From assembly GCF_020711235.1 (NCBI RefSeq), contig NZ_JAJFAV010000004.1, positions 186,001 to 250,000 on the forward strand: a stretch of DNA of 64,000 nt. The letters run 5' to 3'. Position 1 is the stretch's first letter. Every line of letters begins with the position of its first letter. The notes beneath the pieces are model-generated. The model was given only the letters and a program-made list of their open reading frames with translations, searched no databases and was not told the DNA's origin. Made by a program: the position numbers and the translations under genes. The stretch is from Hymenobacter sp. 15J16-1T3B. GTDB taxonomy: Bacteria; Bacteroidota; Bacteroidia; Cytophagales; Hymenobacteraceae. This document shows positions 22,469-34,856 of this stretch, in pieces.

Positions 22469-23677
22469 ATGACCCCTGACCAGCAAGCCCTCGTTTCAGC
22501 TACGGTAGGCGTATTGAAAGAACACGGCGTGGCCCTGACCACCCACTTCTACCGCCGCATGTTCGAGCACAACCCCGAGCTGAAGAATGTCTTCAACATG
22601 GGCAACCAGCAGAACGGCAAGCAGCAGATGGCCCTGGCCCTGGCCGTGCTGGCCTACGCCGAGCACATCGCCGACCCCTCGGTACTGCTGCCAGCCGTCA
22701 CCAAAATCGGCCACAAGCACGTGAGCCTCGACATCCGCCCCGAGCACTACGCCATCGTGGGCCGGCACCTGCTGGCCTCGATCGGGGAAGTTTTGGGGGC
22801 CGCCGCTACTCCCGAACTGCTCGACGCCTGGGCCGCGGCCTACGGCGAGTTGGCCGCCCTGATGAGCGGGCTGGAAAACGGCCTGTACCGCGACGCCGTG
22901 GCCCAAACCGGAGGCTGGACGGGCTGGCGCCCCTTCACCGTGAAGCGCAAGGTGATGGAGTCGGCGGAAATCACCTCGTTCTACCTGTACCCCACCGACG
23001 GCGGCGCGGTAGCTGATTTCCAGCCGGGCCAGTACGTGAGCCTGCGTTTGTTCCTGCCCGAGCTGAATCTGTTTCAGCCCCGGCAATACAGCCTTTCCTG
23101 CGCCCCGAACGGGGAATACTACCGCATTTCGGTGAAGCGCGAGGCCGGTGCCCCCCAGCACCCCGACGGCATGATCAGCAACCGCCTGCACGCGTTCGTG
23201 CAGGAAGGCGACGTGCTGGAGCTGGCCGCGCCGGCCGGCGACTTTGCCCTGGACACCCGCAAGCAGACGCCCGTGGTGCTGGTGAGCGGGGGCGTGGGCC
23301 AGACGCCGCTGCTGAGCATGCTGGAGCACCTGGTAGCCACCGGCAGCCCGCGCGAAATCGTGTGGGTGCACGGCTCGCGCAATCCGGAGGTACACGCCTT
23401 CCGCGAGCCAGTGGCCCAGTTGGCCGAGCGCCACGCCAACGTGCAGCGCCACATTTTCTACGACGCGCCGGCGCCGGAGCAACTGGGCCAGGGCCACTAC
23501 CAAGGCATTGTGGACCTGCAGAAGCTCGACGGGGGCAGCCAGCTGCCGGAAGCCGAGTACTACCTATGCGGCCCGGTGCCCTTTATTCGCAAGCAGGTGC
23601 AAGACTTGCAGGCCTTGGGCGTGCCGCGCGCAGCCATTCACTTTGAGGAGTTCGGTCCCGCCACGCTGAGCCTGTAA
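22469..23677 (+). CDS. hmp: Flavohemoglobin, nitric oxide dioxygenase
   Basis: Converts NO and O2 to nitrate using NAD(P)H. 402 residues with the complete family layout: globin domain (about 1-140) with Tyr28, Gln52 and proximal His84; FAD-binding domain with Arg205-Gln-Tyr-Ser; and NAD-binding domain with GGVGQTP at 274-280, YLCGPVPFI and the C-terminal EEFGPATLSL. Length matches E. coli Hmp. Its gene follows an NsrR-like regulator and a palindromic operator, so induction by NO is likely. It would protect the oxidases encoded at the left of the window. Confidence 0.96.
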   Translation: MTPDQQALVSATVGVLKEHGVALTTHFYRRMFEHNPELKNVFNMGNQQNGKQQMALALAVLAYAEHIADPSVLLPAVTKIGHKHVSLDIRPEHYAIVGRHLLASIGEVLGAAATPELLDAWAAAYGELAALMSGLENGLYRDAVAQTGGWTGWRPFTVKRKVMESAEITSFYLYPTDGGAVADFQPGQYVSLRLFLPELNLFQPRQYSLSCAPNGEYYRISVKREAGAPQHPDGMISNRLHAFVQEGDVLELAAPAGDFALDTRKQTPVVLVSGGVGQTPLLSMLEHLVATGSPREIVWVHGSRNPEVHAFREPVAQLAERHANVQRHIFYDAPAPEQLGQGHYQGIVDLQKLDGGSQLPEAEYYLCGPVPFIRKQVQDLQALGVPRAAIHFEEFGPATLSL

Positions 23678-26830: not shown

Positions 26831-26941
26831 CGTCATGCCGGGCGCAGCCGAGGCCTCTCGCGAGCTGGCGCTTGACAGTCACCTTCGTTCAACGAAGAAT
26901 TTACTGCTGAGCGAGAGGCCTCGGCCGCGCCCGGCATGACG
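26831..26941. repeat. GTCAT-ended palindromic repeat, copy B
   Basis: Arms 26831-26861 and 26911-26941 pair at 30 of 31 positions with a 49-base spacer. The ends read GTCATGCCGGGC and GCCCGGCATGAC. Compared with copy A the inner arm bases differ, but both arms changed together so that pairing is kept. Confidence 0.88.
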
Positions 26942-26963: not shown

Positions 26964-28400
26964 CTACGCCGGCTGCTGGCGGCGGCCCTGCAGGATGCGG
27001 TAGAACGAGCGGGACTGGATTTCTTCGGTAGTCAGGCCGGTAGCCAGCACTTCTTCCTCGGTGATGGCGCCGCAGTTCAGGGCGCGCAGGAAGAAGTTGA
27101 GCAGGCCCTGCCCGGTGGCCGCGTCGTCGAAAATATCGCCGGTGAGGGTGCTGATGGCAGCCCGCTCCACGAAGGTCTTGAGGCGGTGCAGCGCGTCGGA
27201 GTAGGAGCTCAGGAAGAAGGTGTAGGTGGCCGCGTAGCGCATGGGCAGCTGGGCCGGGTTCAGGTCCCAGCCTTGGTAGAGGCCGTTGATGAGCGAGTGG
27301 GTGGTGTGGTGGAAGCCCTGCCGCCACGCATTGTGCACCGATTCGCGGTTTTCGCGCAGCTGCTCGTAGCTCAGCTTGTCGCCGCGGTGCGGCCCGATGG
27401 GCATCACGTTGGTAGCGCCGTCGGAGAGGAAAATGCCGGTGCCGCCCAGCGCCACCTTGGTCATGTGATGGGCAAAGTCGCAGACGGGATGGGCCATGGT
27501 CTGGTAGCGCGCCGTGATGCCGGCCGAGGCGGTGTAGTCGTAGGTACCGAAGTGCGCGGCAATGCAGCGGCCCTCGCTGGCGCGGATGATGCGCATCAAG
27601 GGGTTGCGGCCCTCGTCGTCCATGATGATCTGGGTGGCCTCCACCATCGTTTCCATGCGCAAGGTGCCGGCGGGCAGACCGTTGGCCTGTTCCAGCAGCT
27701 CAAACAGGCGCACCATCGTGGCCATCTGCTCGGGGATGGTCACCTTGGGCAGCATCACCACGAAGTTGTCGGGCAGCCGGCCGCCGGTTTCCTGCAGCAA
27801 CGTGGTCAGGAAGATGTCGAGCGTGCGCACGCCGCGGGCTTTCAAGTCTTCGGTGAAGGGCTTGATGCGGATGCCGATAAAGGGCGAGATGGTGCCCTGC
27901 TGCATGCCGCGGGCCAGCTCCTTGGCCGCTTGCACGGCGGTGGCGTCTTCCTCCTCGTCGGGGCGGTTGCCGAAGCCGTCCTCGAAGTCGATGCGGAAGT
28001 CTTCCACGGCCTCGGTCTGCAGCTTGCGCACGACTTTGTTGTAGACCGAATACGCCAGCCAGGCGTGCTCCTTTTTGCGCTCCTCCTCGCTCATCGCGTC
28101 GAGGCGGGCGGTAAGGTCGGCCACGTCGGCGGCGAGGGTGGGCAGGTGCTCGTGGCCGTCGAGGCGCAGCACCCGGGCCAGCTCGGCGAAGTTGGGCGCG
28201 TAGGTCTGCAGGCTATTGAGGGCAATGTCGCCCATGCGCTGGCAGGTGTCGGCCTTGAAGAGGTTGGCCCCGCCGTAGACGGTGTGCACCGGCTGCCGGT
28301 CGGGCCGGTCGCCGGGGTAGGTGCGCTGAAACTTCAGGTTGGCGGTGCCTAGCTGCTCCAGCAGCTGGTGTTTATCGGATTCGGAAAGGCTGAGGTGCAT
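26964..28400 (-). CDS. DUF6986 protein, CitE/malate-synthase-like, in the urate island
   Basis: 478 residues of a family annotated only as DUF6986 (sometimes as a phosphoenolpyruvate kinase-like protein). The sequence reads as a TIM-barrel of the HpcH/HpaI-CitE-malate synthase group: RIDFEDGFG with Glu140-Asp141, RIK at 178-180, VMLPKV at 215-220, LRMETMVEAT with Glu250, and HFGTYDYTAS at 283-292, which matches the metal-binding and substrate loops of CitE-like lyases in order. It is the last gene of the minus-strand island that converts urate to ureidoglycolate. A reaction that consumes the glyoxylate released by this pathway would fit fold and place; this is a hypothesis. Confidence 0.75.
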   Translation of the reverse strand: MHLSLSESDKHQLLEQLGTANLKFQRTYPGDRPDRQPVHTVYGGANLFKADTCQRMGDIALNSLQTYAPNFAELARVLRLDGHEHLPTLAADVADLTARLDAMSEEERKKEHAWLAYSVYNKVVRKLQTEAVEDFRIDFEDGFGNRPDEEEDATAVQAAKELARGMQQGTISPFIGIRIKPFTEDLKARGVRTLDIFLTTLLQETGGRLPDNFVVMLPKVTIPEQMATMVRLFELLEQANGLPAGTLRMETMVEATQIIMDDEGRNPLMRIIRASEGRCIAAHFGTYDYTASAGITARYQTMAHPVCDFAHHMTKVALGGTGIFLSDGATNVMPIGPHRGDKLSYEQLRENRESVHNAWRQGFHHTTHSLINGLYQGWDLNPAQLPMRYAATYTFFLSSYSDALHRLKTFVERAAISTLTGDIFDDAATGQGLLNFFLRALNCGAITEEEVLATGLTTEEIQSRSFYRILQGRRQQPA

Positions 28401-28490: not shown

Positions 28491-28518
28491 GTCATGTCTC
28501 GACTGCGCTCGACATGAC
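28491..28518. repeat. GTCAT palindromic repeat, short copy C
   Basis: GTCATGTC (28491-28498) pairs with GACATGAC (28511-28518) around a 12-base loop. The right half (CTGCGCTCGACATGAC) is identical to the right end of copy D, so this looks like a collapsed or internally deleted element. Confidence 0.7.
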
Positions 28519-28548
28519 GGGCTGATGGCTTCGGTCAGCGCTGCCGAA

Positions 28549-28890
28549 TCAACTACCGCGGTAAGTGCTGTAACCGTAGGCGTTCAGCAGCAGCGGCACG
28601 TGGTAGTGGGAGGCATCGGAGACGGTGAAGACGATTTCGACGTAGGGGTAAAAGGTGGTGGCGTTGGTGCGCTCGAAGTACTCCTGGGTGAAGAATTTCA
28701 GCTTGTAGGGGCCCACGGGCAGGCGCAGGGTGGGGGAGAGCAGGTCCGGGATGCGGCCGTCGTGGTTGGTCACGCCGCGGGTCATTTCCAGCCACCCGTC
28801 GCCGGGCAACGGGGTGTAGAGCACCACCGTTACGTCGGCGGCGGGGCGGCCCTTGGTGGTGTCGAGGATGTGGGTAGTGAGCTGACTCAT
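28549..28890 (-). CDS. uraH: 5-hydroxyisourate hydrolase
   Basis: Transthyretin-like enzyme that opens 5-hydroxyisourate to OHCU, the second step of urate breakdown. 113 residues, normal length. Diagnostic motifs are THILDTTKGRPA at the N-terminus and the C-terminal YRGS. The active-site His and Arg expected in LTTHILDTT and in the strand before VTNHDGRIPDLL are present. It lies in the minus-strand island between uraD and the DUF6986 gene, 84 bases after uraD. It acts on the product of PuuD. Confidence 0.95.
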   Translation of the reverse strand: MSQLTTHILDTTKGRPAADVTVVLYTPLPGDGWLEMTRGVTNHDGRIPDLLSPTLRLPVGPYKLKFFTQEYFERTNATTFYPYVEIVFTVSDASHYHVPLLLNAYGYSTYRGS

Positions 28891-28974: not shown

Positions 28975-29481
28975 TTAGGCACTGAGAAGCTTTTCCAGCC
29001 GCAGCCGGGTGATTTTACGCTGCTCGCCGGCGGCAACCCGCAGCTCCACCTCGGCCGGGTTGGGCAGGCGGGCCTGCAGCAGATGCAGCATCTCGTCGGC
29101 TGATTTGCCGGTGGCGCAGACGATGAAAATGTAGCCGAATTTCTGCTCGTAGGCATCGTTGCCGGCGGCCAGGGCCCGCAGTGTGTCGTCGGAGGCTTGC
29201 GCGACGGCGCCTTGCTCGCCGGCGGCCCAGGCGCTGGTGCTGGCGAATTTCTCCTTGAGCGCGTTCAGGTCACCGATTTTGGGGTGGTGGGTGAAAGCTT
29301 CGCGCCAGTCGGCTGCGGTGAGTTCGTCCCAGATGGTATCGGCTTGGCCAAATAAGGTGTCACGGTCGGCCACGGGAAAGACGTCGAGCATCTGCTCCAC
29401 CCAGCGCGTGGCGCCGCAGCATTTGCGCAGCGCCTCGGCCCGGGCCGGCCGGTCAAGGTAATTGAGTTCGTCGAGGGTCAT
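28975..29481 (-). CDS. uraD: OHCU decarboxylase
   Basis: Decarboxylates 2-oxo-4-hydroxy-4-carboxy-5-ureidoimidazoline to S-allantoin. 168 residues from ATG 29481 (MTLDELNYLDRPARAE). An earlier in-frame ATG would translate part of repeat copy D, so it was rejected. Family motifs: FTHHPKIGD with catalytic His66, and YEQKFGYIFIVCATGKSADEML. It forms the UraH-UraD pair usual next to urate oxidising enzymes. Confidence 0.94.
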   Translation of the reverse strand: MTLDELNYLDRPARAEALRKCCGATRWVEQMLDVFPVADRDTLFGQADTIWDELTAADWREAFTHHPKIGDLNALKEKFASTSAWAAGEQGAVAQASDDTLRALAAGNDAYEQKFGYIFIVCATGKSADEMLHLLQARLPNPAEVELRVAAGEQRKITRLRLEKLLSA

Positions 29482-29510
29482 GGGCGGGATAGTTGAACGT
29501 CGTATCTGAA

Positions 29511-29624
29511 CGTCATGTCGAGCTTGTCGAGACATCTCGCGTGCTGACGCTAAATAGTACCTGACGATTGGAATTACTATTATACATCAGCACGCAAGAT
29601 GTCTCGGCTGCGCTCGACATGACG
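29511..29624. repeat. GTCAT-ended palindromic repeat, copy D
   Basis: Left arm 29511-29547 and right arm 29587-29624 are complementary apart from a few mismatches and a 1-base indel, with a 39-base AT-rich loop. The ends read GTCATGTCGAGC and GCTCGACATGAC. It sits in the 155-base gap between allE and uraD on the minus strand, so it is transcribed if these genes form one operon. Confidence 0.87.
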
Positions 29625-29636
29625 GGCGAGAGGCCG

Positions 29637-30383
29637 TCAGATTACCGTCGGGAAGCGGTTCACGTTTTTGTAGTAGATGTACACCGAGGGCTCCTGGCCC
29701 ATGGCGGTGGCCCATTGCTGGCAGTATGGCGCCATCCAGATGGAGTCGCCCTTTTTCACCGGGTACCACTGCTGGTCGAGCATATAAATGGCCTGGCCCT
29801 GCAGGTACATCAGCCCGTGCTCCATGATGTGGGTTTCGACCATGGGCAGGTGGCCGCCGGTGCCGTAGGTGAAGATGTTCACGGCCATGTCGAAGCCCAG
29901 CTCGTTGGGCAGCAGCTCCTGGATGCGCAGGGCCTCGTCGTTCATGTAGATGGGCGCCTTGCTCAGGTCCCGCTCGCCGAAGTACACGCCCGGCGCGTCG
30001 TAGCCTTCCAGCGGCTCGTAGACTTTGTGAAAAGTCAATACCTGCGTGCCCTCGGCGGGCTGCTCGAAGCGGTAATCCTGCCCGGTCGGCACGTACACGT
30101 ACTGCCCTTCGGCCAAGGTGCGCGTCTGCCCGTCCACGCTCACCTGCACCTGCCCGCCCACGATGTAGAAGAAAATCTGGCTGGCTTCGGTGCGGCCCAG
30201 GAGCTGGCCGCCTTCGCGTAGGGTGATGAGCGTCTGACAGAGGCGGGCGCCCATCTGCTCGTTGATGATGACGTTGACGGTGCAGTTGGTCCAGCCCGGC
30301 ACGTTGCTGTTGATGTAGCCATCGGGGGCAATGATGGCGTGGTTGCGCTTGACGACGGACCGGGTAAGGGCGGAAATTTCCAT
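29637..30383 (-). CDS. allE: (S)-ureidoglycine aminohydrolase, double cupin
   Basis: Mn-dependent bicupin that converts S-ureidoglycine to S-ureidoglycolate and ammonia. 248 residues from ATG 30383 (MEISALTRSVVKRNHAI). The frame upstream is GC-rich and unlike the family. Metal and substrate residues are in place in the second cupin: Glu183, His185, His189 and Gln223 (YGTGGHLPMVETHIMEHG and CQQW). The first cupin (about 55-110) lacks a full metal set, as in the family. It follows allC after 132 bases and precedes repeat copy D. Confidence 0.92.
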   Translation of the reverse strand: MEISALTRSVVKRNHAIIAPDGYINSNVPGWTNCTVNVIINEQMGARLCQTLITLREGGQLLGRTEASQIFFYIVGGQVQVSVDGQTRTLAEGQYVYVPTGQDYRFEQPAEGTQVLTFHKVYEPLEGYDAPGVYFGERDLSKAPIYMNDEALRIQELLPNELGFDMAVNIFTYGTGGHLPMVETHIMEHGLMYLQGQAIYMLDQQWYPVKKGDSIWMAPYCQQWATAMGQEPSVYIYYKNVNRFPTVI

Positions 30384-30515
30384 GGAAGGCGTGAGGTGGG
30401 AAAGGGGCAAACGGCCGGCGCAACGCCCGGCCGCGGGTTCGGAATAAGGAAAAAAACAGCCCGCTTGCCGTGGCGGAAGCGCCCGAGCAGCGGGGAGGTA
30501 TGACAAGTAAGCGGT

Positions 30516-31757
30516 TTAGCCGGCAGAAATCAGCCCGGCCAAAAATTGCTCAGCCACTTGCAGGGCGGCGGCCAGGTCGGCGGGCTCCACGTTTTCCAGC
30601 GGGTTGTGGCTGATGCCGCGGTAGCAACGCACGAACAGCATCGTAGCCGGTGCCACCTGCGACACCGGCACCGCGTCGTGCCCGGCGCCGCTGACCAGCT
30701 CGATTAGCTCGTGGCCGGCGCTGCGCACGGCCTGCCGCAGCGCCGCGTTCAGGCCCGCGTCGCAGGCGATGGGCGCGGTTTGCTGCACCAGCTGCCAGTC
30801 GAGGGTGAGGCCGCGGCGGGCGGCCTGGGCTTGGGCCTGCTGGCGCAGGTGCTCGTAGGCGGCGGCCAGCTCGGCTTCGTCGGGGCTGCGCAGGTCGAGG
30901 CTGCAGACGACCTCGCCGGGAATCACGTTGCTGGCCGCGTGGGGCACCTGCAGCTTGCCCACCGTGGCCACGAGGCTGCGGCCGTGGGCCGTGGCAAACT
31001 GCTCGGCCAGGAGCACAAACTCGGCGGCGCCGGCCAGCGCGTCCTGGCGCATAGTCATCGGCACGGTACCGGCGTGGCCGGCCATGCCGCGGAAGGTCAG
31101 CTCCACCCGGCGCTGCCCGGCAATGGCCGTAACCACGGCCACCGGCACCTGCCGCTCCCAGAGCACCGGCCCCTGCTCGATGTGCACCTCGAAGTAGCCT
31201 TGCCACTCCGCGGCCGGCAGCGCGTCGGCGGCCAGCCGGGCGGGGTTGCCGCCCAGCGTGGTAATGGCCTCGGCCAGTGAAACGCCGGCGGCATCGGTGC
31301 GGCCGAGCAGCTCGGGTTCGAAGGCGCCGGTCAGCACTTTCGAGCCCAGGTAGGTGGTGTGAAAGCGCACGCCTTCCTCGTCGCTGAAGGCCAGCAGCTC
31401 CAAGTGAAACGGCAAGTCGGCGTGCTGAGCGGCCACCTGCTCCAGCAGGTCCAGCCCGAGCAGCACGCCCAGCGGCCCGTCGAAGCGGCCGGCATTCACC
31501 ACCGTGTCGATGTGCGAACCGATGACGAAGTTTTTGGCGCCCGGCCGCGTACTCGCCAGCCGGCCGCGCAGGTTGCCGATGTTGTCGACGTGCACCTGCA
31601 GACCGGCCTGCTGCATCCACTGCTGCACCAAGTCGCGCCCCTGCCGGAAAGCTGGGGTGCCGAAGGTGCGCGTGACCACGCCGGGCTCCTCGCTAATGGC
31701 GGCCAATTGCTCGATGCGGCGCATGATCTGCGCCGCGCGTTCTGAATAGCTGGGCAT
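30516..31757 (-). CDS. allC: Allantoate amidohydrolase
   Basis: M20-family dimetal hydrolase that cuts allantoate to S-ureidoglycine, CO2 and ammonia. 413 residues from ATG 31757 (MPSYSERAAQIMRRI), 5 bases after the allantoinase stop. The long frame upstream overlaps allB and is not real. Metal ligands: His82 in IGSHIDTV, Asp93 in FDGPLG, Glu127-Glu128 in FSDEEGVRF, His in VHIEQGP, and His in GISHNPLE near the C-terminus. Pairing with AllE strongly favours allantoate over N-carbamoyl amino acids as substrate. Confidence 0.92.
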   Translation of the reverse strand: MPSYSERAAQIMRRIEQLAAISEEPGVVTRTFGTPAFRQGRDLVQQWMQQAGLQVHVDNIGNLRGRLASTRPGAKNFVIGSHIDTVVNAGRFDGPLGVLLGLDLLEQVAAQHADLPFHLELLAFSDEEGVRFHTTYLGSKVLTGAFEPELLGRTDAAGVSLAEAITTLGGNPARLAADALPAAEWQGYFEVHIEQGPVLWERQVPVAVVTAIAGQRRVELTFRGMAGHAGTVPMTMRQDALAGAAEFVLLAEQFATAHGRSLVATVGKLQVPHAASNVIPGEVVCSLDLRSPDEAELAAAYEHLRQQAQAQAARRGLTLDWQLVQQTAPIACDAGLNAALRQAVRSAGHELIELVSGAGHDAVPVSQVAPATMLFVRCYRGISHNPLENVEPADLAAALQVAEQFLAGLISAG

Positions 31758-31762
31758 GGGGG

Positions 31763-33097
31763 CTAGCGGGTAAGAATCTGGCCTTGGTTGAGCCGCACAA
31801 CATCGGGCCGCTGGTAGGCCAGCGCGCCGGCCAGATATGTCTGCTCCACCACGCCGCGCAGTGTCTCGCCCACGTAGGGCGACACTTTGTGGCGGTGCTG
31901 CAGCCCGGCCTCGGTCACGGTAAACGTGGCGTCGGCGTCGAGCACCAGCAGGTCGGCGGCGTAGCCGGGCTCGATGCGGCCGCGGTGGTGGGCTTGCCCG
32001 ATGAGCTTGGCCGGGTTGGCACTCAGCCAACGGGCCAGGTCCAGCAGCGTGGCACCGCGGGGCTGGGCGGCCGTCCAGAGCGCGGGCAGGGCGAGCTGCA
32101 GCGAGGCAATGCCGCCCCAGGCCGTGGTGAAGTCGCCCGCGTCAATCTGCTTGAGGGCGGGCGGGGCAGGGGAGTGGTCGGTGGCCACGAAGTCGATGAG
32201 GCCGGTTTGCAAGGCCTGCCAAAGCTGCTCGTTGTTGGCCCGCTCGCGGATGGGCGGGGCGCACTTGTAACGCGTCTGGCCGTCGAGCAGGTCTTCGGCG
32301 TTGAAAAACAAGTAGTGCTGCCCGGTTTCCACGGTCAGCGGCAGGCCCTCGGCCTTGGCCTGGGCCAGCTGGGCCAGCGAGTCGGCGGAGGAAAGGTGCA
32401 CGATGTGCACGGGGCAGCCCGTGTCGCGGCAGAGCCGGATCATCAGGGCTATGGCCTCGTCTTCCCAGCGTTTGGGGCGGGAGGCGAGGTAGTTTTGGTA
32501 GGAGCGTTTGTCGCCCTGCTTCCACGCGTCGTCTTCCTCGCTCAGCTCGCAGTGCACCAGCAGCGGCAGGCCGTGGCGGGCCAGCACGGGCATGACGGCG
32601 CGCAGGTCGGCTTCGGTGGCGTTCGGAAAATCATCGATGCCGGAGTGGGTTAGAAAGGCCTTGAACCCGAGCACGCCGCGGGCAATAAGCGGCTCCACCT
32701 CGGCCGCGTTGCCGGGCACGATGCCGCCCCAGAACCCGCAGTTGACGTGCAGCTGGCCCGGCGTGGCGGCCAGTTTCTGTTCAAAGTTGGCCACCGAAGT
32801 GGTTACCGGACTGGAGTTCAGCGGCATATCAACCAGCGTGGTCAGGCCGCCGGCCAGCGCGGCGCGGGTGCCCGTGTCGAAGCCCTCCCAGTCGGTGCGG
32901 CCCGGCTCGTTCAGGTGCACGTGCGGGTCGATCAGGCCCGGCAGTACTGCCCATTCGCCCGCGTCGGTGACGGGCCCATCAACGGGCGCGTCGTGGGGCA
33001 GCACGGCGGCAATGCGCCCGCCTTCAATGCGCACCACGCCCGGCCGAATACCGGTCGGGGTGACAATTTTTTTACTTTTTATTGCGAAATCTGGCAT
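31763..33097 (-). CDS. allB: Allantoinase
   Basis: Cyclic amidohydrolase that opens S-allantoin to allantoate. 444 residues, normal length. Metal motifs: D58-P-H59-V-H61-L-N-E-P-G, carbamylated Lys146 in GFKAFLTHSG, His in LVHCEL, His in VHIVHLSS, and Asp in VATDHSP. It is the first gene of the minus-strand urate island and is coupled to allC by a 5-base gap. A 355-base divergent region separates it from puuD. Confidence 0.95.
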   Translation of the reverse strand: MPDFAIKSKKIVTPTGIRPGVVRIEGGRIAAVLPHDAPVDGPVTDAGEWAVLPGLIDPHVHLNEPGRTDWEGFDTGTRAALAGGLTTLVDMPLNSSPVTTSVANFEQKLAATPGQLHVNCGFWGGIVPGNAAEVEPLIARGVLGFKAFLTHSGIDDFPNATEADLRAVMPVLARHGLPLLVHCELSEEDDAWKQGDKRSYQNYLASRPKRWEDEAIALMIRLCRDTGCPVHIVHLSSADSLAQLAQAKAEGLPLTVETGQHYLFFNAEDLLDGQTRYKCAPPIRERANNEQLWQALQTGLIDFVATDHSPAPPALKQIDAGDFTTAWGGIASLQLALPALWTAAQPRGATLLDLARWLSANPAKLIGQAHHRGRIEPGYAADLLVLDADATFTVTEAGLQHRHKVSPYVGETLRGVVEQTYLAGALAYQRPDVVRLNQGQILTR

Positions 33098-33452: not shown

Positions 33453-34856
33453 ATGATTTCCTTTCTCGTTTTGGTGGTTGTGCTGGCGGTATTCCTGGTA
33501 ACCATTGGCGTCAGTGCGTTTCTGCACCGGCTGGCCCGCAGCCACGGCCGCGGCGGTGCCCTCGGCGAGGGCGGCCTGACCCTGCAGGGCTTCGGCTACG
33601 CCCTGACGGTGCTGGCCGTCCTGTTTTTGCTGGCCGTGGGCTACAACTTCGCCGCCGGCACCGCCTACGAAGGCCACCTGATGGAGTGGCTCAACATTGT
33701 GGTGCGGCTCATGCACGTCACCTTCGGCATTGCTTGGATCGGGGCCTCGTTTTACTTCGTGTTCCTCGAAAACGCCCTGAACCGCACCGACAACGTGCGC
33801 GAGGAACTGGCCGGCAACCTCTGGGCCGTGCACGGCGGCGGTTTCTATTACCTGGAGAAGTACAAGCTCGCGCCCAAGGAAATCCCCAAAGCCCTGCACT
33901 GGTTTAAGTACGAGGCCTACTTCACCTGGCTGACCGGCTTCAGCCTGCTCTGCGTGGTGTACTACTTCAACCCCACGGCCATGCTCATCGACCCGCAGGT
34001 GCTCGATATCAGCCCGCTGGCTGGGGTAGGCATCGGCATCGGCTCCTTCGTGGTGGCCTGGGTGCTGTACCACCTGCTCTGCCGCACGCCGCTGGTCAAA
34101 AACAACCTGGCTATGGCCGCGCTGGGGCTGCTGATCGGCACCGGCTTCGCGTGGTTTTACTGCCAGGTGTTCAGCGCCCGGGCCGCGTACCTGCACTTCG
34201 GGGCAATGCTCGGCACGCTGATGGTGGGCAACGTGTTTTTCATCATTATCCCGGCCCAGAAAGCCATGGTGAAAGCCGCCACCGAGGGCCTGCCGCTCAA
34301 CCCCGAGCTGGGCAAACACGCCGGGCTACGCTCCCTGCACAACAACTACTTCACCCTGCCGGTGCTCTTCGTGATGGTCAGCAACCACTTTCCGAGCACC
34401 TTCGGCCACAGCTACCCCTGGCTGGTGCTGGCCGCCATTGCCCTGGGCACAGCCGGTATCAAGCATTGGCTGAACCTGCGCGAGAAGCACCAACCCAGCG
34501 GCTTGGTCTTTCCGCTGGCTGCGGGCCTGCTGCTGGCCGTGGCCTTCGTGACGGCGCCCAAAACCGACAGCAGCGCCGCCGCCGGCTGCACCCCGAACGT
34601 GTCGATGGCGCAGGTGCAGGGCATCGTGCAGCAGCGCTGCCTCCGCTGCCACTCCGCCACGCCCACCGACGACGTGTTCAAGTCGCCGCCGAACGGGGTG
34701 GTCTACGACTCGCCCCAAGACATTATTCGCCTCAAGGACAAGATCATGCAGCGCGTGGTCGTCACCAAGACCATGCCCCAGAACAACAAAACCGGCATGA
34801 CCCAGGAAGAGCGGGATTTGATTCGCTGCTGGATCGAGCAGGGCGCCAAAGAGTAA
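33453..34856 (+). CDS. puuD: Membrane urate hydroxylase with C-terminal cytochrome c domain
   Basis: PuuD-type urate oxidising enzyme, 467 residues. The N-terminal part is a membrane domain of about nine helices with family segments (MHVTFGIAWIGASFYFVFLEN, LAGNLWAVHGGGFYYLEKYK, MLGTLMVGNVFFIIIPAQ). The C-terminal domain is a monoheme cytochrome c with Cys396-L-R-Cys399-His400 and likely Met441. In this family urate is converted to 5-hydroxyisourate and electrons leave through the cytochrome, so no H2O2 is made. It lies divergent to allB-allC-allE-uraD-uraH and replaces soluble uricase, which is absent from the window. Confidence 0.92.
   Translation: MISFLVLVVVLAVFLVTIGVSAFLHRLARSHGRGGALGEGGLTLQGFGYALTVLAVLFLLAVGYNFAAGTAYEGHLMEWLNIVVRLMHVTFGIAWIGASFYFVFLENALNRTDNVREELAGNLWAVHGGGFYYLEKYKLAPKEIPKALHWFKYEAYFTWLTGFSLLCVVYYFNPTAMLIDPQVLDISPLAGVGIGIGSFVVAWVLYHLLCRTPLVKNNLAMAALGLLIGTGFAWFYCQVFSARAAYLHFGAMLGTLMVGNVFFIIIPAQKAMVKAATEGLPLNPELGKHAGLRSLHNNYFTLPVLFVMVSNHFPSTFGHSYPWLVLAAIALGTAGIKHWLNLREKHQPSGLVFPLAAGLLLAVAFVTAPKTDSSAAAGCTPNVSMAQVQGIVQQRCLRCHSATPTDDVFKSPPNGVVYDSPQDIIRLKDKIMQRVVVTKTMPQNNKTGMTQEERDLIRCWIEQGAKE

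Follow-up and report, generated by a model that had tools for sequence, protein, structure and literature searches.

No reaction has been assigned to DUF6986 (PF22484), a protein family that occurs in two phyla in this analysis and whose best profile and fold matches are malyl-CoA lyases (5ugr and the Rhodobacter sphaeroides enzyme, 4l9y) and the CitE-like proteins 3r4i and 3qqw. We analyzed the DUF6986 gene that closes a urate-degradation run in a stretch of 64,000 nucleotides from Hymenobacter sp. 15J16-1T3B (the window; G000:C37:186001-250000, where G000 is the code of its genome). Given its place in the urate clusters of many bacteria and a conserved site that resembles the active site of enzymes condensing glyoxylate with acetyl-CoA, DUF6986 probably converts waste glyoxylate to a useful acid. 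From alignments, a structure model and analogy with known enzymes, we predict with moderate confidence that it is a dedicated Mg2+-dependent enzyme condensing purine-derived glyoxylate with acetyl-CoA to malate or malyl-CoA. A literature search returned no paper on DUF6986 or PF22484, nor on uric acid degradation in Hymenobacter.

In the malyl-CoA lyase of Rhodobacter, Glu44, Asp45, Glu141 and Asp168 are absolutely conserved; Arg76 and Asp299 are conserved in the CitE-like superfamily and in malate synthases, with Glu replacing the Asp in the malyl-CoA thioesterase group (excerpt of PMC3832036). Two CitE-like proteins carry the Glu-Asp pair, the Arg and the Mg-binding Glu and Asp in motifs like those of DUF6986. 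In contrast to malyl-CoA lyases and CitE-like proteins, which have 333-339 residues, DUF6986 proteins with an annotated or clear start have 418-480, with a long insert between strands 1 and 2, a helical C-terminal region and a urate-cluster setting. Malate synthases A and G (PF01274, PF20659) share barrel homology with the family, and their FEDS, GRWDY and EDAAT motifs resemble FEDG, FGTYDY and DDAAT of DUF6986 in the same order; their MS_C domain (PF20659), however, is unmatched in all seven DUF6986 proteins scanned.

The haloarchaeal malate synthase and malyl-CoA lyase (NF041315, NF041626) are described in PMC3112382, as its excerpt indicates, and the former is likewise a short malate synthase inside the CitE-like group (excerpt of PMC3832036). 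NF041315 matched none of the three DUF6986 proteins scanned with NCBIfam; NF041626 is the sole NCBIfam match to two DUF6986 proteins, at 19-20 bits, far under its 500-bit cut-off. The haloarchaeal fold match to the DUF6986 model is 5tao (E 2.7e-5), and PF22484 has no match in 14 control genomes, Haloferax volcanii included. By sequence, DUF6986 is not a malate synthase A, G or of the haloarchaeal form; it may work like one.

Dal7 of yeast is an ordinary malate synthase A. As malate synthase 2 it contributes to purine degradation, the two yeast malate synthases having separate duties (excerpt of PMC3743077). DUF6986, from another branch, is proposed to play the same part as Dal7, a second malate synthase for purine degradation beside the glyoxylate-cycle one. 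The ureidoglycolate lyase AllA (PF04115) belongs at the same pathway point and to an unrelated family; its model does not match the DUF6986 protein of the window.

DUF6986 and urate breakdown

We counted co-occurrence in a main sample of 394 genomes, which covers Bacteroidota only. PF22484 scored over its cut-off in 17 of them, or 16 once G287 (L123) was removed: at 28.7 bits it passes the Pfam cut-off (27 bits), yet it is a PEP-utilising enzyme, so low-scoring DUF6986 calls are doubtful. The 2-oxo-4-hydroxy-4-carboxy-5-ureidoimidazoline (OHCU) decarboxylase (PF09349) is present in 13 genomes, and all 13 have full-length DUF6986 on the same contig, within 2 kb. A hypergeometric test of this overlap gives 8e-22 by genome and 1e-11 by genus, uncorrected for kinship and with genera counted by hand from listings. 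These 13 urate genomes are spread over five families (f1, f5, f17, f18, f28). In a smaller sample of 198 genomes, DUF6986 likewise accompanies OHCU decarboxylase in ten of ten.

A scan of named genomes returned at least 563 relatives, and we analyzed the best 80 loci, all of them Bacteroidota going by their titles, identifying neighbors by tblastn. These loci carry 5-hydroxyisourate (HIU) hydrolase (75), OHCU decarboxylase (74), allantoinase (63), the urate oxidase PuuD (41) and a xanthine dehydrogenase subunit (40). In 75/75 the HIU hydrolase lies upstream of DUF6986 on the same strand; the gap has a median of 70 bases, is below 600 in 69 loci and is never larger than 8.1 kb. Three of the five loci that lack it start only 3 to 251 bases before DUF6986. 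A chance open reading frame (ORF) or mis-call is ruled out by the family score of 650 bits and by this same-strand neighbor in 75 of 80 loci. Elsewhere in the genome, allantoinase is over cut-off in five of seven genomes checked and not in G394 or G399, the best match in G399 being cut at a contig end.

The allantoate step is encoded by either of two routes: AllC and/or ureidoglycine aminohydrolase in 38 of the 80 loci, allantoicase in 30, both in none and neither in 12, several of which end at contig ends. Given that DUF6986 is kept with either route, and that both yield ureidoglycolate, it acts most simply at or after ureidoglycolate; a role as part of one allantoate route only is ruled out.

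The association extends to actinobacterial plasmid records, where we found five relatives with 33-37% identity, all of them DUF6986 (371-564 bits). The Tsukamurella gene comes after xanthine dehydrogenase and guanine deaminase and shares 4 bases with a gene annotated as a bifunctional allantoicase/ureidoglycine aminohydrolase. In Nocardia, it stands between xanthine dehydrogenase and allantoicase, just upstream of the latter, in a stretch that also holds OHCU decarboxylase and HIU hydrolase. On Gordonia plasmid p174 (L097, 11540-13227), it precedes urease, and a hotdog thioesterase gene overlaps its start by four bases, hinting at a released CoA thioester product in that lineage; a tblastn search of the other collected DUF6986 loci showed no thioesterase of this type. 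The Paenarthrobacter copy is flanked by genes for a polysaccharide-deacetylase-family protein and an NCS1 nucleobase transporter; a glycerate kinase gene lies about 8 kb from it. The Nonomuraea copy had no ureide-breakdown neighbor among the ORFs tested, and tblastn found no DUF6986 relative in viral contigs.

The gene, its neighbors and this co-occurrence are direct observations. A lack of enrichment near purine genes, which would have refuted the sequence-only reading, is not what we see, DUF6986 being tied to ureide breakdown in Bacteroidota and in four of the five actinobacterial plasmid relatives. That reading also made DUF6986 the last gene of the run, which is true of the window and not of G183 or G356, where it stands between OHCU decarboxylase and HIU hydrolase (the latter judged by reading in G356). 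G356 (L128, 7594-16999) has an operon-like run of xanthine dehydrogenase, XdhC, allantoinase, allantoicase, OHCU decarboxylase, DUF6986 and HIU hydrolase, in which the xanthine dehydrogenase subunits and allantoinase were likewise identified by reading.

Fold and active site of DUF6986

The window protein is a full-length DUF6986: PF22484 matches residues 19-469 with 649.8 bits (E 2e-195), covering profile positions 3-408 of 408. Its only Pfam matches are DUF6986 and HpcH_HpaI, and an NCBIfam scan gave no match. An AlphaFold2 model was built on 68 sequences (scores in Table 1; a superseded 11-sequence model had a predicted local distance difference test score, pLDDT, of 71). The model is poor at residues 35-42, which by sequence form the first barrel strand, and its C-terminal region is helical.

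Foldseek against the PDB gave 77 matches at E <= 0.001, the first of which is the CitE-like 3qqw (E 1.0e-6, template modelling (TM) score 0.65 by target); the best 50 of the 77 are all 3qqw or malate synthases A, G or H (the haloarchaeal form). By query, TM scores are only 0.29-0.43 and many root-mean-square deviations are near 21 A, so the model is not superposable as one rigid unit. Profile comparisons point the same way. With a 13-row profile, the best PDB matches are malyl-CoA lyases and a CitE-like protein (5ugr, E 4.6e-6; 4l9y, 3.1e-4; 3r4i, 0.006); against a Bacteroidota malate synthase profile, hhalign gives E 4e-7, and the G356 copy passes the Pfam malate synthase barrel model (PF01274; 28.0 against a cut-off of 26.4). 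By sequence and model, DUF6986 belongs to the CitE/malyl-CoA lyase/malate synthase superfamily and is predicted to have a TIM barrel.

The window protein, of 478 residues, contains the motifs of this group in the order first described from the sequence: RIDFEDGFG (136-144), RIK (178-180), VMLPKV (215-220), LRMETMVEAT (247-256) and FGTYDYTAS (284-292). To follow the active site across the family, we aligned 73 rows, leaving out nine by an N-terminal motif, rows more than 90% identical and rows shorter than 420 aa. Loci from named genomes had been recruited with the patterns QGWDL[NH]PA and [VI]FDDAATG, and a reading frame was chosen if it carried at least one of three motifs; L098, missed by these motifs, is included. 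Glu140, Asp141, Arg178, Glu254, Asp288 and Asp425 are invariant in 73/73 rows. As a check against invariance built in by the selection, the same six residues are also kept in 9/9 dropped rows and in 19/19 rows found by the family model or tblastn.

These residues pair with the Rhodobacter lyase as follows, all by computed alignment except the last: Glu140 with Glu44, Asp141 with Asp45, Arg178 with Arg76, Glu254 with Glu141, Asp288 with Asp168 and Asp425 with Asp299. Glu254 and Asp288 thus fall on the Mg ligands Glu141 and Asp168. Opposite Glu140-Asp141 stand LEDS in two CitE-like proteins and CEDS in malate synthase; Arg178 falls on the RIN Arg of both CitE-like proteins and is shifted by two residues in a low-confidence global alignment with malate synthase. 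Asp425 precedes a C-terminal helix in a motif, FDDAAT, that is like DEPAT in Actinomycetota, EDAAT in malate synthase and GKMVDFAT in a CitE-like protein. The predicted fold and the conserved residues, too, come straight from the analysis. The metal-binding Glu/Asp pair, whose absence would have refuted the sequence-only reading, is kept, and so are the other active-site residues of malyl-CoA lyase and malate synthase, with the lid Asp matched only by motif.

The metal, the substrates (glyoxylate and acetyl-CoA), the product (malate) and what each residue does are what we infer. Ureidoglycolate, with which the cluster ends, would fall apart or be cleaved to give glyoxylate for DUF6986. Glu254 and Asp288 would bind Mg2+, with Glu140 and Asp141 holding its waters, and Arg178 would polarise glyoxylate. 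Asp425, from the C-terminal region, would take a proton from acetyl-CoA, and the resulting enolate would attack glyoxylate to form malyl-CoA. The malyl-CoA would then be either hydrolysed in place, as in malate synthase, or released, as in malyl-CoA lyase.

Competing enzymes and competing explanations

The sequence-only reading noted that a ureidoglycolate lyase was missing from the window. Indeed, AllA is absent from the whole genome, and PF04115 occurs in only 6 of the 394 Bacteroidota genomes, in 0/16 with DUF6986 and 0/13 urate genomes (ureidoglycolate amidohydrolase and ureidoglycolate dehydrogenase were not searched). Glyoxylate carboligase (TIGR01504, cut-off 711 bits) was found in none of the 10 urate genomes searched, G385, G251 and G356 having been left out, and in none of 12 genomes or records overall; glyoxylate aminotransferases were not searched. 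Matches under the TIGR01504 cut-off (<=398 bits) occur in 11 of the 12, and lower matches in all 14 controls as well; these are presumably related thiamine-dependent enzymes.

Several observations weigh against a dedicated condensing enzyme. The window protein matches no malate synthase model at E 0.001 in Pfam or NCBIfam, and its HpcH/HpaI match (PF03328, 22.1 bits) is below the cut-off of 25. The C-terminal domains do not align by profile (hhalign probability 0.25%), which leaves motif and position as the basis for pairing Asp425 with the known base; in a MAFFT alignment, Asp425 falls opposite a different part of the CitE-like rows. Canonical malate synthase and isocitrate lyase are present in 10 of the 13 urate genomes, that of the window included, and on the Gordonia plasmid a malate synthase G lies some 9 kb from DUF6986; with a canonical enzyme alongside, a second malate synthase could look redundant. 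Allantoin breakdown yields no acetyl-CoA, a point argued against a glyoxylate-shunt route for allantoin-derived glyoxylate (excerpt of PMC12694930), and with AllA absent, the ureidoglycolate step could be that of DUF6986 instead. Finally, three genomes with divergent DUF6986 (G156, G240 and G302; 359-452 bits) have no OHCU decarboxylase and have other neighbors; of seven scanned, five could be named (LD-carboxypeptidase, cytidine-deaminase-like protein, TerC, GCS2 ligase and M29 peptidase).

These three loci (G156, L115; G240, L126; G302, L127) also lack isocitrate lyase and a canonical malate synthase over cut-off, and their six active-site residues are intact. The divergent copies are possibly malate synthases for another glyoxylate source.

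Malate synthase and isocitrate lyase are present in the same 10 urate genomes and absent from the same three (G033, G091, G183), so the canonical enzyme goes with isocitrate lyase and DUF6986 with urate. Their absence from these three, like the missing AllA and carboligase, speaks for the condensing role. In the genome of the window, canonical malate synthase lies beside isocitrate lyase at G000:C37:155127-157744 (L100), about 57 kb from DUF6986 and outside the window. This rules out an organism without another glyoxylate sink; DUF6986 is not the only possible one there, and its reaction is still one that we infer. Among seven further DUF6986 genomes with odd neighborhoods, several of them incomplete metagenome bins, canonical malate synthase exceeds 300 bits in G394 and G399 and was not found in the other five.

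The chief rival explanation is that DUF6986 is a non-homologous ureidoglycolate lyase replacing AllA, which would cleave (S)-ureidoglycolate to glyoxylate and urea with the Mg site holding the glyoxylate half. One Arthrobacter can grow on allantoin without obvious candidate genes for converting allantoate (excerpt of PMC3534580), and the related Paenarthrobacter has DUF6986. A lyase would also fit the lack of AllA in genomes with full-length DUF6986, a cluster that otherwise stops at ureidoglycolate, and the close association with allantoicase genes and, in Gordonia, with urease. But ureidoglycolate decays on its own, and a thioesterase gene overlaps DUF6986 in Gordonia; both points count against a lyase. 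Moreover, acyl-CoA and acyl-ACP enzymes of this fold conserve the Glu-Asp pair and the lid Asp (excerpt of PMC3832036), residues that are not obviously needed to break a hemiaminal. The active site favors condensation of glyoxylate with an acyl-CoA over cleavage of ureidoglycolate, and we regard the lyase as unlikely. The earlier suggestion that DUF6986 handles the end product of the pathway is partly supported, by the urate link and the kept active site; of its two alternatives, condensation is the more probable.

Less likely still is a pyruvate-dependent aldolase of the HpcH/HpaI type, which would join glyoxylate and pyruvate to 4-hydroxy-2-oxoglutarate without CoA. The barrel and metal ligands are shared, and the PF03328 match of the window protein, under cut-off, is joined by one over it in the Nocardia copy (33.9 bits). 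HpcH aldolases, however, have Glu-His at the strand 2 position, where DUF6986 has Glu-Asp, as do malyl-CoA lyase and malate synthase, and HpcH is not known to have a counterpart of Asp425, which is invariant in the C-terminal region of DUF6986; among PDB profiles, too, malyl-CoA lyases and a CitE-like protein match best. We rate as equally improbable that DUF6986 makes or breaks another CoA thioester, such as citramalyl-CoA or beta-methylmalyl-CoA, and is linked to purines only through glyoxylate as one substrate. Malyl-CoA lyases are promiscuous (excerpt of PMC3832036), and three divergent copies sit in genomes without OHCU decarboxylase, but for the main clade a purine role is favored by the 13/13 co-occurrence and by where the gene sits in the operon.

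A variant of the preferred condensing role would couple the two reactions: DUF6986 would bind (S)-ureidoglycolate, expel urea in the Mg site and condense the nascent glyoxylate with acetyl-CoA to malate, leaving the toxic aldehyde unreleased. If true, this would explain the missing AllA and (where tested) carboligase, and why DUF6986 is kept beside an ordinary malate synthase; we hold it to be a long shot.

The cluster in the window and its meaning

The run in the window encodes the steps from 5-hydroxyisourate to ureidoglycolate, as read from the sequence at the outset, each neighbor scoring over the cut-off of a curated model (Table 1). The true start of AllC is probably near 31750, because its model match begins at residue 95. 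The DUF6986 gene has a G+C content of 91% at codon position 3, a further sign of a real gene, and its nearest named copy among the matches listed is from Hymenobacter edaphi (97% identity).

Table 1. Features of the urate cluster in the window (pTM, predicted TM score; HIU, 5-hydroxyisourate).
Feature	Position	Strand	Evidence
DUF6986 protein, 478 aa, ATG start; predicted Mg-dependent glyoxylate:acyl-CoA condensing enzyme (malate synthase/malyl-CoA lyase type)	26964..28400	-	PF22484; pLDDT 88.8, pTM 0.88; Foldseek CitE-like 3qqw and malate synthases
Codons of FDDAAT (residues 424-429) with Asp425, proposed catalytic base	27114..27131	-	D425 invariant in 73/73 rows and in 9 dropped rows
Codons of RIDFEDGF (residues 136-143) with Glu140 and Asp141, whose malyl-CoA lyase counterparts hold Mg-bound waters	27972..27995	-	E140 and D141 invariant
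HIU hydrolase	28549..28890	-	TIGR02962, 136 bits, over cut-off
OHCU decarboxylase, longest ORF, match from residue 17	28975..29535	-	NF010372, 181.7 bits, and TIGR03180, 172.8 bits, over cut-off
(S)-ureidoglycine aminohydrolase, longest ORF, match from residue 46	29637..30506	-	TIGR03214, 290.6 bits, over cut-off
Allantoate amidohydrolase AllC, longest ORF, match from residue 95	30516..32030	-	NF006775, 497.4 bits, over cut-off
Allantoinase AllB	31763..33097	-	TIGR03178, 546.5 bits, over cut-off
PuuD-type membrane urate oxidase, divergent from the run	33453..34856	+	PF06181, 408.8 bits

Long palindromes and a 23-base repeat (two copies with <=1 mismatch, 0 expected by chance) lie at 26831-26941, 28497-28519 and 29528-29624. 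They sit between genes of the cluster, one of them just beyond the end of DUF6986, and resemble dispersed intergenic repeats. Near the urate cluster, at 22469-23677, there is also a flavohaemoprotein-like gene with a globin and an NAD-binding domain.

With AllA and the tested carboligase missing, the last steps of ureide breakdown in the sampled urate-degrading Bacteroidota are unaccounted for, and DUF6986 gains a specific predicted reaction with named residues. If the prediction is true, DUF6986 would add a further form of malate synthase to A, G and the haloarchaeal one, reserved like yeast Dal7 for glyoxylate from purines, and urate would be usable as a carbon source, beyond nitrogen alone.

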